Shown here piece after piece: positions 9,529-58,445 of a DNA stretch of 64,000 nucleotides (positions are counted from its first letter, which is position 1; every line of letters begins with the position of its first letter). The notes under the pieces were generated by a model. It did no database searches and was not told the origin of the DNA. It saw nothing but the letters and a program-made list of their open reading frames with translations. Position numbers and translations under genes: made by a program. The stretch comes from Betaproteobacteria bacterium (GTDB lineage Bacteria > Pseudomonadota > Gammaproteobacteria > Burkholderiales > JACQAP01): assembly GCA_016194905.1 (NCBI GenBank), contig JACQAP010000029.1, positions 1 through 64,000 of the forward strand. The letters are read 5' to 3'.

Positions 9529-10875
9529 ATGACCATGACCGACGAACTCGCGGGAATCGTGAACGCCACGCTGGACGCATACGCCCTGCGCGGCAAACGT
9601 GTTGCGATCGCGCTGAGCGGCGGCGTGGATTCGATGGCGCTGCTCGACCTTCTCCATGAACTGCGTACCTCGCGGGAATTGTCGCTGTCGGCGATTCATG
9701 TGAATCATCAGATCAGCGCGCATGCCGACGAATGGGAGACATTCTGCCGTTCGCTTTGCCAGCGCCGCGGAATTCCGTTGACGGTGCAGCGCGTACAGGT
9801 CACGCCCGACGGTTCCGGCGTCGAAGCCGCCGCGCGACGGTTGCGTTACCGCGCCTACGCTTTGATCGATGCCGATTACGTCGCGCTCGCGCATCATCTC
9901 GACGATCAGGCGGAGACCTTCCTGCTGCAATTGTTGCGCGGCGCCGGACCGAAGGGATTGGCCGGCATGCCGGTCATCAGGAGCCAGGAATCGGCGGCGA
10001 ACGGCAAGGCAGGCGCGCCGCTCATCCTGCGCCCGTTGCTGGAAGTTCGCCGTAGTCAGATCGTGGCTTACGCAAAATCGAGGCGTCTGGAATGGGTGGA
10101 GGACGACAGCAACACCGATATGCGCTACGACCGTAACTACCTGCGCAACGAGCTTCTGGTGCGATTGGACGAGCGCTTCCCGGCCTATCGCGAAACGCTG
10201 GCGCGAACCGCGCGCAATCTCGCCGATCATGTTTTGCTCGCGGAGGAACTGGCGCGAATCGATGCGCAATCACTCGATCGCAGCGCGATATCGGCGGAAC
10301 GGCTGCGGCAGTTGTCCGATGCGCGCGCACTGAATCTGCTGCGCCAGCTTTTCTCGGACGGCGGATTGCAGATGCCGCCGCGCACCAGGCTGGAGGAAGC
10401 ACTGAGACAGTGCCGCGAAGCCGGCCGCGATGCGGAGCTCCAGGTTACGTTCGGTGACACCGGCCTGCGCTGCTATCGCGACCGCGTGGAACTCGTCGAG
10501 AATTCCCCGGACATGCCGGCGGACTGGCAATCGCGCTGGGATGGCCATCACGAGTTGATTCTGCCGGATGGGCTGGGTGTGCTGCGATCGCGGGCGGTGG
10601 TCGGCGAAGGCATCGCCAAACGCCATTTCGACATACGCGCGGCGACGGTCCGGGGCCGCAGCGGCGGCGAGCGCATGCAACCGGGGGAAAACAGGCCACG
10701 GCGCGCACTCAAGAGTCTGCTGCAGGAGCATGCCATTCCGCCATGGGAGCGCAGCCGCATGCCGCTGGTGTTCTTCGGCGAACAACTCGCCTGGGTGCCG
10801 GGTATCGGTGTGGCAGCGGAGTTTCGCGCCGCCGCAGCGGAGCCCGGCGTTGCGCCGGAATGGGAACCGGGCTGA
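9529..10875 (+). CDS. tilS: tRNA(Ile)-lysidine synthase
   Basis: This 448-residue cytoplasmic enzyme modifies C34 of the CAU-anticodon tRNA-Ile to lysidine so that it reads AUA. The N-terminal N-type ATP pyrophosphatase domain carries the PP-loop SGGVDS at about residues 30-35. The substrate region HHLDDQAETFLLQLLRG and the downstream DDSNTDMRYDRNYLRNELL are characteristic, and the C-terminal TilS domain includes GGERMQPGENRPRRALKSL-like residues. ATG 9529 is used; ATG 9535 two codons later is possible. It follows accA, a common neighbour in Betaproteobacteria, but after a terminator. Confidence 0.95.
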   Translation: MTMTDELAGIVNATLDAYALRGKRVAIALSGGVDSMALLDLLHELRTSRELSLSAIHVNHQISAHADEWETFCRSLCQRRGIPLTVQRVQVTPDGSGVEAAARRLRYRAYALIDADYVALAHHLDDQAETFLLQLLRGAGPKGLAGMPVIRSQESAANGKAGAPLILRPLLEVRRSQIVAYAKSRRLEWVEDDSNTDMRYDRNYLRNELLVRLDERFPAYRETLARTARNLADHVLLAEELARIDAQSLDRSAISAERLRQLSDARALNLLRQLFSDGGLQMPPRTRLEEALRQCREAGRDAELQVTFGDTGLRCYRDRVELVENSPDMPADWQSRWDGHHELILPDGLGVLRSRAVVGEGIAKRHFDIRAATVRGRSGGERMQPGENRPRRALKSLLQEHAIPPWERSRMPLVFFGEQLAWVPGIGVAAEFRAAAAEPGVAPEWEPG

Positions 10876-53749: not shown

Positions 53750-55054
<1,305 letters not shown>

Positions 55055-55058
55055 TCGA

Positions 55059-55367
55059 ATGCGCTTCCTCGGCCTCGTCCTCGTGCTGTTGATCGCGCTG
55101 ATCCAGAATCCGCTCTGGTTCGGCAAAGGCGGGTGGCTGCGCGTGCATGAACTCGACGCCCAAGTCGAAGCCCAGCGCGAGACCAACACGCAGCTGGCGG
55201 CACGCAACGCGATGCTCGACGCCGAAGTGCTGGACCTGAAGCAGGGTTACGACGCGATCGAGGAACGGGCCCGCTCCGAACTCGGCATGGTCAAGCAGGA
55301 CGAAGTGTTTTTCCAGCTGCTGCAGCCGTCCCGCGCTGCGACGGCTTATTCCCCCGACAAGCGCTGA
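55059..55367 (+). CDS. ftsB: Cell division protein FtsB
   Basis: This 102-residue bitopic protein has an N-terminal transmembrane helix ([18 protein letters not shown]) and a periplasmic coiled coil ([20 protein letters not shown]), then [18 protein letters not shown]. It forms the FtsBLQ complex that triggers septal synthesis. It follows eno by four bases, the conserved order. Confidence 0.93.
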
Positions 55368-55447: not shown

Positions 55448-55476
55448 GTGTCAGAACAAGCGGGATTTGCTAAGAT
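55448..55476 (+). promoter_or_regulatory. Probable promoter of the fluoride operon
   Basis: GTGTCA (55448-55453) and TAAGAT (55471-55476) are each four-of-six matches to sigma-70 boxes, 17 bases apart. A start near 55483 would put the riboswitch at the very 5' end of the RNA, as expected. The rest of the 55368-55447 gap shows only a short hairpin at 55392-55406 (CCCGGC/GCCGGG). Confidence 0.55.
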
Positions 55477-55484
55477 TCGCAACA

Positions 55485-55549
55485 GCATGGAGATGGCATT
55501 CCTCCATTAACCGCCACGCTCATTCGAGGGTGGCTGATGATGCCTACGC
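55485..55549 (+). promoter_or_regulatory. Fluoride riboswitch aptamer (crcB motif)
   Basis: The order of elements matches the fluoride aptamer. P1 is ATGGAG (55487-55492) with CTCCAT (55502-55507), loop ATGGCATTC. The joining strand TAACC follows. The second hairpin is GCCAC (55513-55517) with GTGGC (55530-55534), extended by CTC/GAG around an ATTC loop. The 3' conserved strand is CTGATGATGCCTAC (55534-55547). The expected pseudoknot forms between loop GGCAT (55495-55499) and ATGCC (55540-55544). It precedes a DUF190-antiporter-stress protein operon, a context known for this riboswitch class. Confidence 0.93.
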
Positions 55550-55576
55550 TTTGGCCCGGACGGGTCGCGTAGGCAT
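55540..55576 (+). promoter_or_regulatory. Expression-platform hairpin competing with the fluoride aptamer
   Basis: ATGCCTACGC (55540-55549) is perfectly complementary to GCGTAGGCAT (55567-55576), with an inner CCCG/CGGG stem (55555-55564). The left arm is the same strand used for the aptamer pseudoknot, so aptamer and hairpin exclude each other. No T tract follows. A second perfect 8-base stem lies at 55583-55590/55611-55618. Confidence 0.75.
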
Positions 55577-55704
55577 TCGCGCACCTGTCCAAAAATGTTT
55601 GCAACAAAAAGGACAGGTCCATTCGGTCGTCACCGGTTCGTTGTTAATGACGCTGGCGGCAGTTGCATAATGGCAGTCGTGAATACTCGCTGAGGAGGGG
55701 AATC

Positions 55705-56028
55705 ATGAACGGATACCAAATCACGTTTTTCACCCAGCAGGACCGCCGTCACCATGGTAAGCAGATTGGCGACTGGTTGGTGCAATTGGCCAAGCAGATG
55801 GGTTTGCGCGGCGCGACGATGTTCACGGGTGCAGAAGGATTCGGCCATCATCGCCGCATTCATTCCGCGCACTTCTTCGATCTTGCCGACCAGCCCGTGG
55901 AAGTTGTGATGGCGGTCTCCGCGGAGGAATCCGATCGCCTCTTCGCGCGGTTGCGGGCAGAAGGCGTCCAGGTCTTCTACGTCAAATCGACAGTGGAGTT
56001 CGGCACGCTCGGTGAGAGCGAACAATGA
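55705..56028 (+). CDS. DUF190 family PII-like protein
   Basis: This 107-residue protein matches the DUF190 (COG1993) family: start NGYQITFFTQQDRRHHGKQI, GLRGATMFTGAEGFGHHRRI and VFYVKSTVEFGTLG. DUF190 proteins have a ferredoxin-like, PII-like fold and often sit beside CrcB fluoride channels or ion transporters, so a regulatory or ligand-sensing role on the next-door antiporter is plausible. It is the first gene behind the fluoride riboswitch, with a very strong ribosome site (GAGGAGGGG) before ATG 55705. The last four bases overlap the antiporter start. The biochemical function of the family is not established. Confidence 0.88.
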   Translation: MNGYQITFFTQQDRRHHGKQIGDWLVQLAKQMGLRGATMFTGAEGFGHHRRIHSAHFFDLADQPVEVVMAVSAEESDRLFARLRAEGVQVFYVKSTVEFGTLGESEQ

Positions 56029-57242
56029 CCGAGATCTGGGCGCAGGCCTCGCTCTGGCTGGGCCTGGCGCTGGCGGCATCGCTCCTGTCGATTCGGTTCC
56101 GGATTGCGACCGCCTTGTCCGAGATCGTAGTAGGCACGATCGCGCAGCTCGTGATCGGTGCGGCGTTGGGCAGCGCCTTGCTGGCGGGGGACGCAACCTG
56201 GATCAAGTTCCTCTCGGGCGCCGGCGCGATCCTTTTAACGTTTCTGGCCGGCGCGGAACTGGATCCAGTCGTGTTTCGCAAACAATGGAAGCAGGCGAGC
56301 GCCATAGGACTGGCGAGCTTTGCTGCGCCCTTTCTGGGCTGCACTGCGATCGCTCGCTGGGGGCTGGGCTGGTCACCGGAGGCAAGCTGGCTTGCGGGTA
56401 TCGCGATGTCCACCACTTCGGTGGCGGTGGTTTACGCCGTCATGCTGGAATTCGGCCTCAATGCAACGGACTATGGAAAAGTTGTACTGGCGGCTTGCTT
56501 TATCACCGATTTGGCGACGGTGGTCGCGCTCGGACTTATCTTTGCACCATTCACTTACAGAACCCTGATCTTTCTCGGCGCGGGGGTGGCCATTTTTATC
56601 GTGCTGCCATGGCTCACCCCCCGGTTCTTCCGTCGCTACGGCGGCCGGCCATCGGAACTGGAGGCCAAGTTTCTGATGTTCGCCTTGTTCGGCATGGGCG
56701 CACTCGCCACTTGGGCAGACAGTGAAGCAGTGCTGCCCGCCTATTTGCTCGGCATGGTGCTGGCCGGCACCGTAGGCAAGGATCACGCCCTGGTGCGACG
56801 GTTGCGCACGCTCACGTTCGGTCTGCTGACCCCGTTTTATTTCATCCGCGCCGGATCACTTGTTTCAGTGCAGGCACTCGTGGCTGCGCCGGCCGCGTTT
56901 CTGGTTCTGCTTGTGGCGAAGATGGCAACCAAAATAGCCGGAGTCTATCCAGTCACGCGACTCTACAATTCACCCCGACAGGAGGGCTTATACACGACGC
57001 TGTTGATGGCCACCGGCCTGACCTTCGGCACGATTTCCGCCTTGTTCGGGCTTTCCCATCAACTCATCGATCAGGCCCAGTATTCCGCGCTCGTGGCGGC
57101 GGTCATCGGCAGCGCTGTGGTGCCCACGCTGATCGCGAATGCATTCTTTTTGCCGCGCCACTTGCTGAGCACAAATGCGGTGACCGAAACCACGTTGTCA
57201 CCACCAACCGCGCAGCAGACGCCAACAAGGAGAGCGCCATGA
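56025..57242 (+). CDS. CPA2-type cation:proton antiporter, candidate fluoride-resistance transporter
   Basis: This 405-residue membrane protein has about 12-13 helices and no C-terminal RCK/TrkA domain. CPA2 marks are LTFLAGAELDP (residues about 68-78), the first discontinuous helix SWLAGIAMSTTSVAVVY, and LTPFYFIRAGSLVS (about 265-278). At the ion-binding position of helix 5 it has Thr161-Asp162 (CFITDLATVV) where characterised relatives have Asp-Asp, Asn-Asp or Gln-Asp. Only one acidic residue suggests electroneutral exchange. It is coupled to DUF190 and to the stress-protein gene by ATGA overlaps, under a fluoride riboswitch. Sodium/proton-type antiporters are known members of fluoride regulons, but the transported ion here is unknown. 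Confidence 0.88.
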   Translation: MTEIWAQASLWLGLALAASLLSIRFRIATALSEIVVGTIAQLVIGAALGSALLAGDATWIKFLSGAGAILLTFLAGAELDPVVFRKQWKQASAIGLASFAAPFLGCTAIARWGLGWSPEASWLAGIAMSTTSVAVVYAVMLEFGLNATDYGKVVLAACFITDLATVVALGLIFAPFTYRTLIFLGAGVAIFIVLPWLTPRFFRRYGGRPSELEAKFLMFALFGMGALATWADSEAVLPAYLLGMVLAGTVGKDHALVRRLRTLTFGLLTPFYFIRAGSLVSVQALVAAPAAFLVLLVAKMATKIAGVYPVTRLYNSPRQEGLYTTLLMATGLTFGTISALFGLSHQLIDQAQYSALVAAVIGSAVVPTLIANAFFLPRHLLSTNAVTETTLSPPTAQQTPTRRAP

Positions 57243-57658
57243 TCCGCAGGGTTTTGCTGGGCTACGATGGTTCGGAATCGGCCGACCAGGCATTCCTGTT
57301 TGCCGTCGATCTCGCCCGCAAGTACGGTGCAGAGCTGCATGTCCTCGCGGTGGCTCGTCCGCCGGAACTGAGCAACGAAGTCGAGACCGAGGCGGTAATC
57401 GAGAACTCGCGTCGGCATTACAGCGGGCTCCTGGACTCGCTCAAAAGTCGGCTCGATCACGAGTCCCTGAATGTCCAATTCCAGGTCGAGGTGGGTCACC
57501 CCACGCAGCAAATCGTGCGGTATGCCGAAACGCGCGGCATTGATCACATTGTGGTCGGGCATCGCGGCCATACGTTTTTCGAGCATTGGCTGATCGGTTC
57601 CGTGGCGCGCCAGGTCATTGCGCATGCCCACTGCACCGTGTCGGTGGTGCGTAAGTGA
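57239..57658 (+). CDS. Universal stress protein, UspA family
   Basis: This 139-residue cytoplasmic protein begins RRVLLGYDGSESADQAFLFAV and ends with the ATP-binding signature GHRGHTFFEHWLIGS (G-2x-G-9x-G-S), so it belongs to the nucleotide-binding Usp subgroup. The ATG overlaps the antiporter stop. Usp genes are recorded in fluoride riboswitch regulons and also commonly accompany CPA2 antiporters, where they may act as regulators. Its precise role is unproven. Confidence 0.93.
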   Translation: MIRRVLLGYDGSESADQAFLFAVDLARKYGAELHVLAVARPPELSNEVETEAVIENSRRHYSGLLDSLKSRLDHESLNVQFQVEVGHPTQQIVRYAETRGIDHIVVGHRGHTFFEHWLIGSVARQVIAHAHCTVSVVRK

Positions 57659-57689
57659 GTCGCCTTGAAAATAAACAAGGAGGAGAACG

Positions 57690-57923
57690 ATGAAGACTAT
57701 TCGAGTCCTGGACAGTTCCGGCGATCGGCCGATCGCTTTCGACGACGGCGAAGCATGCGCGTTGGCCCGCGCCGACGCGCAGGCGTTGTTCGAGCGCATG
57801 CTTGCAAGAGGTGCCACGGCGTTCAAGGTTAACCGTGGCGAGGGCCGAGCGGATGATAAGGTGACCGACTTCGGCGCGATCGAGAACGAGACCATCCTGG
57901 TGCCGCGCATCGTTGGCGGCTGA
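57690..57923 (+). CDS. Small protein of unknown function ending in Gly-Gly
   Basis: I do not recognise a named family. The 77-residue protein starts KTIRVLDSSGDRPIAFDDGE, has a helix-like middle (ALARADAQALFERMLARGA), then KVNRGEGRADDKVTDFGA, and ends ETILVPRIVGG. The beta-alpha-beta-like pattern, ubiquitin-like size and C-terminal Gly-Gly recall beta-grasp modifiers or sulfur carriers, but no E1-like or protease partner is in the window, so this is only a lead. It has a perfect AAGGAGG ribosome site at 57677-57683 and follows the Usp gene by 31 bases, consistent with being fourth in the fluoride operon. Confidence 0.75.
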   Translation: MKTIRVLDSSGDRPIAFDDGEACALARADAQALFERMLARGATAFKVNRGEGRADDKVTDFGAIENETILVPRIVGG

Positions 57924-57926
57924 GTT

Positions 57927-58445
57927 GTGCAGATCAGGCTCCTGGCAACGCTGGGTCACGGCTTGTTGCGGCCGATTGCGCGCCTCATGGGAAAAGGCGA
58001 CCGGGCCTCCCGGGCGTGCAGCGGTCCGAGCGCTGTGGCAGAGGCGCGTGCAAAGAGTTTGTTACTTCGCGTGCTTACGCCGAGGCAACGGGAGGAGTTC
58101 GCGCGCAGCGGCTACTTCGCCGTGGAGGTCGTCGGACGAGGGAGGTTCGTGATTCTGCCGGACGCCATGTTCAATGTCCTGGAGATGGCGACGGGAGATT
58201 GCTATTGCGCGGTTCCGGCAACCGGCGTTCCGATAGCGGACCTGATGCTGGCTCAGAAGCTTCTTCTGGAAAGCGATCCGGACCAATTTTTCCGCGTGGC
58301 GAACTGCCGGCGTGAAGTGGTCGTTGGGCTGATGGAGGATGAGCCTCTCCCCGAGCAGGTCTTGCGTGCGCGTAGGGCACCACGCGATGCAAGGGTCCGA
58401 TGGTCGGAGGTTTCCATGATTCCATATCGGGGCTACCTGCCGTAA
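57927..58445 (+). CDS. Hypothetical protein, possible last gene of the fluoride operon
   Basis: This 172-residue protein is not recognised as a named family. The N terminus is basic and amphipathic (RLLATLGHGLLRPIARLMGK). A compact domain follows at about 45-135: LTPRQREEFARSGYFAVEVVG, then ILPDAMFNVLEM, CYCAVPATGVPIADLMLAQK and FFRVANCR. The pattern of a glutamine/arginine helix, GYF-beta strand, Cys pair and DLMLAQK helix resembles uncharacterised small domains seen in other bacteria. There is no signal peptide. It starts at GTG 57927, three bases after the 77-residue gene, so the two are probably co-translated. Start choice and expression are uncertain. Confidence 0.65.
   Translation: MQIRLLATLGHGLLRPIARLMGKGDRASRACSGPSAVAEARAKSLLLRVLTPRQREEFARSGYFAVEVVGRGRFVILPDAMFNVLEMATGDCYCAVPATGVPIADLMLAQKLLLESDPDQFFRVANCRREVVVGLMEDEPLPEQVLRARRAPRDARVRWSEVSMIPYRGYLP

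Follow-up and report, generated by a model that had tools for sequence, protein, structure and literature searches.

The riboswitch, its operon and their genomic setting

The window, that is, the whole 64-kb stretch of DNA analysed here, carries a fluoride riboswitch aptamer (RF01734) at 55480-55553, followed by five genes; all of these features lie on the forward strand. Cmscan over the whole window matched the model at full length (positions 1-64 of 64) at 54.3 bits (gathering score 34, E 2.9e-12), and the Rfam covariance model thus bears out the well-formed aptamer described in the first-pass annotation, whose start at 55448 lies 32 bases 5' of it. A search of the genome, in which 150 of 712 first-look candidates were scored, returned this aptamer as its sole RF01734 match. 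Folding predicts that the 3' strand of the aptamer (GATGCCTACGC) can also pair with GCGTAGGCATT, forming a competing hairpin with an 11-pair helix at 55539-55577; the fold of 55476-55620 has a z-score of -4.76. Among 100 aptamers, 63 were usable, meaning that the motif was found and enough DNA lay 3' of it, and 52 of these 63 show a competing helix of at least 7 pairs, compared to 21.5 of 63 on average once the DNA downstream had been shuffled. No U-run follows the competing hairpin in the window, and it is therefore not a canonical intrinsic terminator. We infer that the operon responds to fluoride: binding of fluoride to the aptamer would keep its 3' strand out of the competing hairpin, and the bound form would lead to the mRNA of the first three genes, probably with genes 4 and 5 as well.

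The first gene (55705-56028), preceded by a purine-rich stretch at 55692-55700 that reads like a ribosome-binding site, encodes a DUF190 protein of 107 residues (PF02641, 62.6 bits, cut-off 23.4). Its relatives in the PDB include TM0021 (1o51, E 2.3e-11) and 2dcl, and we take it to be a PII-like small protein. Gene 2 (56025-57242) encodes a CPA2-type cation/proton exchanger of 405 residues, in which the exchanger domain is the only one found (PF00999, Na_H_Exchanger, 132.7 bits, cut-off 26.2); TIGR00932, at 108.1 bits, falls short of its 238.3-bit cut-off. Gene 3 (57239-57658) encodes a universal stress protein (Usp) of 139 residues (PF00582, 115.3 bits, cut-off 24) with a G-2x-G-9x-GS motif, and we assume that the general form G-2x-G-9x-G(S/T) marks the ATP-binding type. 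ATGA overlaps at 56025-56028 and 57239-57242 couple genes 1 to 2 and 2 to 3, so the reading frames and the sequence agree with the five-gene, partly overlapping layout first proposed. Genes 4 and 5 follow at 57690-57923 and 57927-58445.

Neither CrcB/Fluc (PF02537) nor CLC-F (PF00654) exporters were matched in the operon. The earlier observation that the window lacks both crcB and CLC also holds: the genome-wide search found one canonical crcB on a different contig (G000:C21:483028-483366, 92.5 bits), whose retrieved 15-kb surroundings carry no fluoride switch, and no CLC gene in the whole genome. The operon has a G+C content of 57 to 63%, similar to its flanks, and its composition therefore gives no sign of recent insertion; the absence of the exchanger from each of three genomes of the same genus fits either gain or loss. 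The site at issue is bounded by ftsB and, past the operon, by a gene that is presumably ilvD-like. An enolase gene lies directly upstream of the operon, 5' of the switch and hence outside its control. In our survey of the best 80 of 113 relatives, 11 loci have eno in their neighbourhood. Its proximity here may be due to chance.

The exchanger and its relatives

The predicted structure of gene 2 (pLDDT 81.5) has NapA (4bwz, Foldseek E 3.6e-11) and KefC (8bxg, E 1e-8) as its top PDB matches. The three share the fold and the catalytic aspartate, and Lys-303 of gene 2 occupies the place of Lys-307 in KefC, whereas sequence identity is only about 20%, the motif is [T/N]D instead of QD or DD, and an arginine is present in TM10. 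We aligned 86 exchangers, namely that of the window, those of 72 of the 80 loci and 13 others; 9 were dropped for want of a usable automatic frame reading, and 4 of the 13 are probably duplicates of counted loci, as G308 probably is of L037. Asp-162, Lys-303 (the TM11 lysine) and Arg-275 (TM10, within TPFYFIRAG) are each present in 86 of 86, while residue 161 is threonine in 53 and asparagine in 33. An aspartate at position 6, the mark of the electrogenic DD-type CPA2 proteins, occurs in none of the 86. A CPA2 protein with no acid at this position is expected to exchange electroneutrally (PMC6181914), and KefC, with QD and Lys-307, is described as electroneutral (PMC11150392). Because gene 2 combines [T/N]161-D162 and Lys-303 with no acid at position 6, it is predicted to carry out electroneutral cation/proton exchange.

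The site of Arg-275 holds R, R and K in three remoter relatives and is not arginine in any of five compared antiporters (G in KefC, M in NapA and S, Y and S in three plasmid antiporters). A relative on a Rubrobacter plasmid has Arg-275 and no fluoride switch. In our reading of the pairwise alignment to KefC, the first four positions of the CPA motif are TTSV, which is not a clean match to the pattern for K+ or to that for Na+. The clade seems to have a sharp edge, with identity falling from 52% to 34% or less among full-length plasmid hits.

Our survey covered 80 loci, which are the best 80 of 113 exchanger relatives and are biased to close ones. Within this best 80, a switch lies on the same strand at most 2.2 kb upstream in 68 (64 of the 72 with that much upstream DNA), so that 12 lack one within this distance, and 9 lack one anywhere in the DNA fetched; Usp follows the exchanger in 71, DUF190 is present in 52 and crcB is nearby in 42, while 29 have the switch with no crcB nearby. 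Of 47 loci, 23 have overlapping DUF190 and CPA2 genes, and in 22 of them the overlap is the same 4 bases, the starts having been chosen automatically. The switches were found with a model, R1, built from 27 pattern-found aptamers that match it by construction, and 100 of its 102 matches were tallied, omitting the two weakest (L066 at 5090, minus, and L051 at 1441, plus). When 8 further loci were checked with Rfam, the 7 with an R1 match were all confirmed, while L113 gave none and L107 gave one that R1 had missed. With 75 switches in 166 kb of upstream strand versus 24 in 717 kb elsewhere (both strands), they are concentrated upstream of the exchangers.

Each of the 10 named isolates whose operon lacks crcB has the gene elsewhere. 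Taken with the crcB on another contig here, this suggests that the operon is a partner of CrcB, not a substitute. Of 38 genomes whose operon lacks crcB (a switch lies upstream in 29 and not in 9), 12 gave no crcB at all, and CLC was also missing from 11 of them, all 12 being metagenome bins of unstated completeness; for L012, L020, L028, L040 and L049, crcB was found within the fetched locus, farther away or on the other strand. One genome, G308 (100% complete, 5% contamination; probably the same as L037, one of the 12), has an intact switch-CPA2-Usp-eno array and neither PF02537 nor PF00654. G076 (98%) has the same layout and likewise no crcB or CLC, but a stop at codon 57 interrupts its exchanger frame and, barring an assembly error, it was rejected as a second exporter-free genome with a working module.

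A probable fluoride-tolerance module and its possible mechanism

That the locus is a fluoride-controlled tolerance operon we hold with high confidence, and its DUF190-exchanger-Usp core is of a type already known as a mobile module for fluoride tolerance. According to a review, Na+/H+ antiporters are the class most commonly associated with the riboswitch after the fluoride exporters (PMC11139923), in line with the initial claim that fluoride riboswitches control antiporters. The operons reviewed there share with ours the aptamer and a CPA-type antiporter, but crcB is absent from our copy; a search of the accessible review text for DUF190 and for universal stress proteins gave 0 hits each. In Enterobacter cloacae FRM, the operon ppaC-uspA-eno-gpmA-crcB-orf5249 confers fluoride resistance, as described from knock-out and complementation (PMC5533749). 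It resembles our operon in its RF01734 switch and Usp gene, whereas its six genes include crcB, eno and ppaC and neither CPA2 nor DUF190. Two enterobacterial plasmid islands (NZ_CP011133 and NZ_CP094842) are arranged as switch-CPA2-Usp-MutS-MutS-like, after which the opposite strand carries a P-type ATPase, crcB and phosphoglycerate mutase: the exchanger is about 78% identical, the switch scores 59.4 bits with RF01734 and Usp follows directly, but MutS-type genes are present instead of a listed DUF190, and crcB is in the same island.

The first-pass annotation had proposed a CrcB-independent module. For this organism the idea was abandoned, as crcB is on C21 of the same genome and the operon is thus not its sole fluoride system, yet crcB-less switch operons do recur (29 of the best 80 relatives) and G308 has no crcB or CLC at all. 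The explanation we favour as probable is an accessory operon, induced by fluoride, that would spend pH gradient to gain membrane potential. The effector would be the CPA2 exchanger, which, judged from its residues, probably exchanges cations for protons and does not transport fluoride. We infer its direction and cargo as follows: in electroneutral exchange, K+ or Na+ would leave and H+ enter, which would shrink the pH difference by which HF is trapped as F-, converting it into membrane potential, the force driving F- out through the CrcB/Fluc channel, whose gene lies elsewhere. DUF190 would presumably gate the exchanger and Usp would serve as a nucleotide-binding stress partner. The review states that the cytoplasm is acidified when HF enters and that export by Fluc depends on the electrical gradient (PMC11139923); the specific gradient-for-potential mechanism is tentative.

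Several observations run against this account. Cation exchange explains no role for Arg-275, the TTSV motif and the switchless loci noted above (9 of the best 80, or 12 within 2.2 kb) are not readily accommodated, and the competing hairpin of the window has no U-run. G308 fits direct fluoride export better. Moreover, the published sign is opposite, with antiporters defending against acidification (PMC11139923).

Could the exchanger itself be the fluoride exporter? The switch-linked clade would then form a third class beside Fluc and CLC-F, performing F-/H+ exchange with the invariant TM10 arginine joining in anion binding and DUF190 regulating the exchanger. Genomes such as G308 and the 12 bins without crcB, the arginine shared by all 86 exchangers and absent in the five compared antiporters, and the seemingly sharp boundary of the clade all speak for it. 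However, the cation/proton exchange residues Asp-162 and Lys-303 are retained throughout, crcB lies in the same neighbourhood in 42 of the best 80 loci, which would be unexpected of a substitute, crcB is present in each of the 10 isolates, G076 combines the lack of crcB and CLC with an interrupted exchanger and so, barring an assembly error, could not rely on the exchanger either, and the Rubrobacter relative has Arg-275 with no switch. We therefore consider this explanation unlikely, and its narrower form, in which a clade defined by [T/N]D, Lys-303 and the TM10 arginine is a DUF190-gated F-/H+ exporter and the sole one in a few genomes, somewhat more doubtful. It is similarly improbable that the exchanger is a Na+/H+ antiporter countering HF-caused acidification with no direct role in fluoride export. 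This is stated in the review, which cites Baker 2012 (PMC11139923), and fold and family are those of Na+/H+ and K+/H+ exchangers, but cation-out/proton-in exchange would acidify the cytoplasm, raising the pH would need reverse running, and for that an electroneutral exchanger should be unable to draw on the membrane potential.

In the literature searched we found no test of the cargo of riboswitch-linked antiporters. Our survey yields a defined clade, signature residues, a recurring DUF190 overlap and one genome that has the module and lacks the known exporters, and the cargo of the exchanger (protons, cations or fluoride itself) thereby becomes testable in a crcB-null host.

The two downstream genes

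Gene 4 encodes 77 residues ending in VGG and belongs to an unnamed family; its partner, gene 5, has a GTG start and encodes 172 residues with the motif DLMLAQK..LE. Neither matches Pfam, NCBIfam, PADLOC or PHROGs. Could they be integral to fluoride tolerance in a five-gene operon? They share the strand with spacings of 31 and 3 bases, gene 4 has an RBS-like site of its own and no terminator-like site is listed between 57658 and 57690, but this is very unlikely, because no homologue of either occurs in any of the 80 related loci (tblastn 1e-4; best 80 of 113 relatives) and the pair recurs elsewhere in the same genome (C31), in G079 and on Bradyrhizobium plasmids, with no switch in L091, L092, L108 or L109. 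Since the pair recurs in unrelated loci, the two small proteins, initially counted as parts of the module, are probably outside it, and we are fairly sure that they are an unrelated pair lying downstream by chance. The gene 4 family was not seen beside a fluoride switch outside this operon. A 76-residue gene after Usp on the Rubrobacter plasmid has a similar place and is unrelated.

The gene 4 profile matched 8 PDB chains, none ubiquitin-like; the strong matches are repeat proteins over 21 residues, and a pentatricopeptide-repeat relation was dismissed. The predicted structure of gene 5 alone (pLDDT 35) was set aside. All 11 intact members of the gene 4 family that were read end in Gly-Gly (8 of 8 aligned and 3 of 3 from viral contigs), as expected of a ubiquitin-like protein, an identity that was considered for gene 4. 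The gene 5 copy in G079 is an open frame, and the C31 pair lies near an ion channel and a superinfection-immunity-type protein.

A fluoride-riboswitch leader and the operon behind it

The Rfam fluoride riboswitch model RF01734 matches an aptamer at 55480-55553 with 54.3 bits (cut-off 34), the sole match in a search of the 4.75-Mb genome in which 150 of 712 candidates were scored, which confirms the aptamer described by the first-pass annotation. Open reading frames and sequence likewise confirm five genes behind it on the same strand: DUF190 (gene 1, 55705-56028), a CPA2 exchanger (gene 2, 56025-57242), Usp (gene 3, 57239-57658), and genes 4 (57690-57923) and 5 (57927-58445), neither assigned to a family. 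ATGA overlaps couple genes 1 and 2 as well as genes 2 and 3. Enolase is a classic fluoride target, and an eno-ftsB pair (53765-55364) stands directly in front of the operon. The enolase gene was recognised by eye, its protein matching the annotated eno of a Methylocystis plasmid (L107), while ftsB scores above the NCBIfam cut-off. Because both genes precede the switch, they lie outside its control.

In the folded leader the 3' strand of the aptamer is captured by a strong competing hairpin (z-score of -4.76 against shuffles). A competing helix of at least 7 pairs is found for 52 of the 63 usable aptamers, compared to 21.5 on average (15 to 30) with shuffled downstream DNA. Such a predicted helix is what an ON switch needs; fluoride would most likely switch the operon on. 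No U-run was found after the hairpin in the window's leader sequence; at least 6 T within 12 bases after the hairpin occur in 8 of the 63 aptamers.

Neighbourhood and spread of the exchanger

We surveyed the best 80 of 113 relatives of the exchanger, which are 67 to 87% identical to it over the best segment. In these 80 loci Usp follows the exchanger in 71, a switch lies within 2.2 kb 5' of it in 68, and DUF190, crcB and eno are nearby in 52, 42 and 11, respectively; the exact order switch-DUF190-CPA2-Usp is seen in 6. When crcB is mapped on a 73-tip exchanger tree, 15 parsimony changes are required, compared to a mean of 24.8 and a minimum of 17 for shuffled labels, and therefore crcB has been gained or lost repeatedly, yet non-randomly. 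Four loci (L039, L040, L049 and L053) carry three to five separate fluoride riboswitches per cluster on both strands; in L040 these stand in front of crcB, eno, DUF190 and CPA2. The Methylocystis plasmid has a third riboswitch in one island (10312-10373, minus strand, 40.3 bits), which escaped our own aptamer model and was found with Rfam.

DUF190 is present in 36 of the 42 crcB loci and in 16 of the 38 without crcB (Fisher p 5.5e-5; same 80 of 113), and 22 of 47 loci share an identical 4-base overlap of DUF190 with CPA2; one more, with an 8-base overlap, brings the count to 23. Since it tracks crcB yet overlaps CPA2, DUF190 looks like a shared partner of CrcB and the exchanger. Its closest solved relative is TM0021 (PDB-code: 1o51). 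A transporter acted on by a small PII-like protein has a precedent in SbtA with SbtB (PMC8352866); by title and abstract, we found no relevant literature tying DUF190 to fluoride.

The distribution of the exchanger is patchy. Not counting the window's genome, it occurs in 4 of 59 relatives' genomes (E 1e-30), and in 3 of 382 sampled genomes of the class and 7 of 397 of the order (E 1e-120); it was found in none of three other genomes of the genus. It is also carried by 38 plasmids (E 1e-60), 19 of them conjugative, and the operon is a mobile accessory module. Two enterobacterial plasmids (NZ_CP011133 and NZ_CP094842) differ in carrying switch-CPA2-Usp-MutS-MutS-like, with a P-type ATPase, crcB and phosphoglycerate mutase on the opposite strand. 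The second MutS-type gene of NZ_CP094842 is annotated as hypothetical.

Known exporters and a proposed role for the exchanger

Is this a CrcB-independent tolerance module, as had been suggested? In this organism it is not: contig C21 of the same genome bears a crcB that covers the family model in full (92.5 bits), with no fluoride switch in the 15 kb examined around it. No CLC gene was found in the genome. Elsewhere the suggestion fares better, as 29 of the 80 loci (best of 113) have a switch and no nearby crcB. Among 38 genomes whose operon lacks a nearby crcB, 26 have one elsewhere (10/10 named isolates, 16/28 metagenome bins), and one of the other 12 has a CLC. Of 11 exchanger-bearing genomes whose completeness is given (96 to 100%, window's genome not counted), 7 have crcB and one of the remaining four has a CLC; in the last three neither was found. 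G308 (100% complete, 5% contamination) has switch-CPA2-Usp-eno with an open exchanger frame, G076 (98%) has switch-CPA2-Usp, but codon 57 of its exchanger is a stop (L112, 7987-9192), and G738 (100%) has CPA2-Usp and no switch. This leaves one genome with a switch, an intact exchanger and neither kind of known exporter: G308, a draft of 220 contigs with possible gaps.

The predicted exchanger structure (pLDDT 81.5, pTM 0.82) best matches NapA and KefC. D162, K303 and R275 are invariant in 86 aligned exchangers, and position 161, the sixth of the CPA motif, is T in 53, N in 33 and D in none. A non-acidic residue here predicts electroneutral exchange (PMC6181914), and PMC11150392 describes KefC, which has QD and K307, as electroneutral. 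The four broken-helix residues, TTSV compared to LSST in KefC by eye, do not discriminate between K+ and Na+. R275 lies within TPFYFIRAG in the tenth helix of the model. Three more distant relatives have R, R and K at this place, while KefC has G, NapA M, and three plasmid antiporters S, Y and S. One of these three relatives, a 52% identical exchanger on Rubrobacter radiotolerans plasmid 2 (L123, 3444-5277), beside a Usp gene, has the same arginine, and no fluoride switch was found at its locus; the arginine is therefore not bound to the switch alone.

We hypothesize that the exchanger probably moves K+ or Na+ out and H+ in without net charge. The pH difference responsible for HF trapping as F- would thereby shrink in exchange for membrane potential, which would drive F- out via Fluc. 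Such a mechanism fits the electroneutral motif and the presence of crcB in many of the operons. According to PMC11139923, HF acidifies and Fluc depends on the electrical gradient, but the same source assigns the riboswitch-linked antiporters to pH homeostasis against acidification. Could the switch-linked CPA2 clade instead export fluoride directly? We consider this unlikely, at perhaps one chance in five; the rare exporter-free genome also fits the exchange of pH difference for potential, because less HF trapping would still help. In the literature consulted on fluoride riboswitches, CPA2, crcB, antiporters and Usp, we found no study that had tested the function of a CPA2 exchanger linked to such a riboswitch.

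Genes 4 and 5

Genes 4 and 5 (57690-58445) constitute a two-gene family without a match in Pfam, NCBIfam, PADLOC or PHROGs, and no homologue of either was found in the 80 loci (best of 113). The pair recurs on contig C31 of the same genome, in another genome (G079) and on Bradyrhizobium plasmids, with sites at L091 6362-7135, L108 3683-4366, L109 3698-4360 and in L130-L132; a further gene 4 (L092, 7074-7307) has gene 5 beside it. L091, L092, L108 and L109 yielded no fluoride switch when searched. Gene 4 proteins have 73-77 residues and are followed by a partner of 137-172 residues with MLAQK..LE. Thirteen Bradyrhizobium plasmid records carry gene 4, and two of the seven read (L133 and L134) have a disrupted frame. 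Every intact member read ends in Gly-Gly, within P-[RH]-x-VGG in 8 of 8 aligned members. A profile search of solved structures returned no ubiquitin-like chain; the small gene 4 product may undergo conjugation or processing. Three relatives on viral contigs (L135-L137) likewise end in GG.
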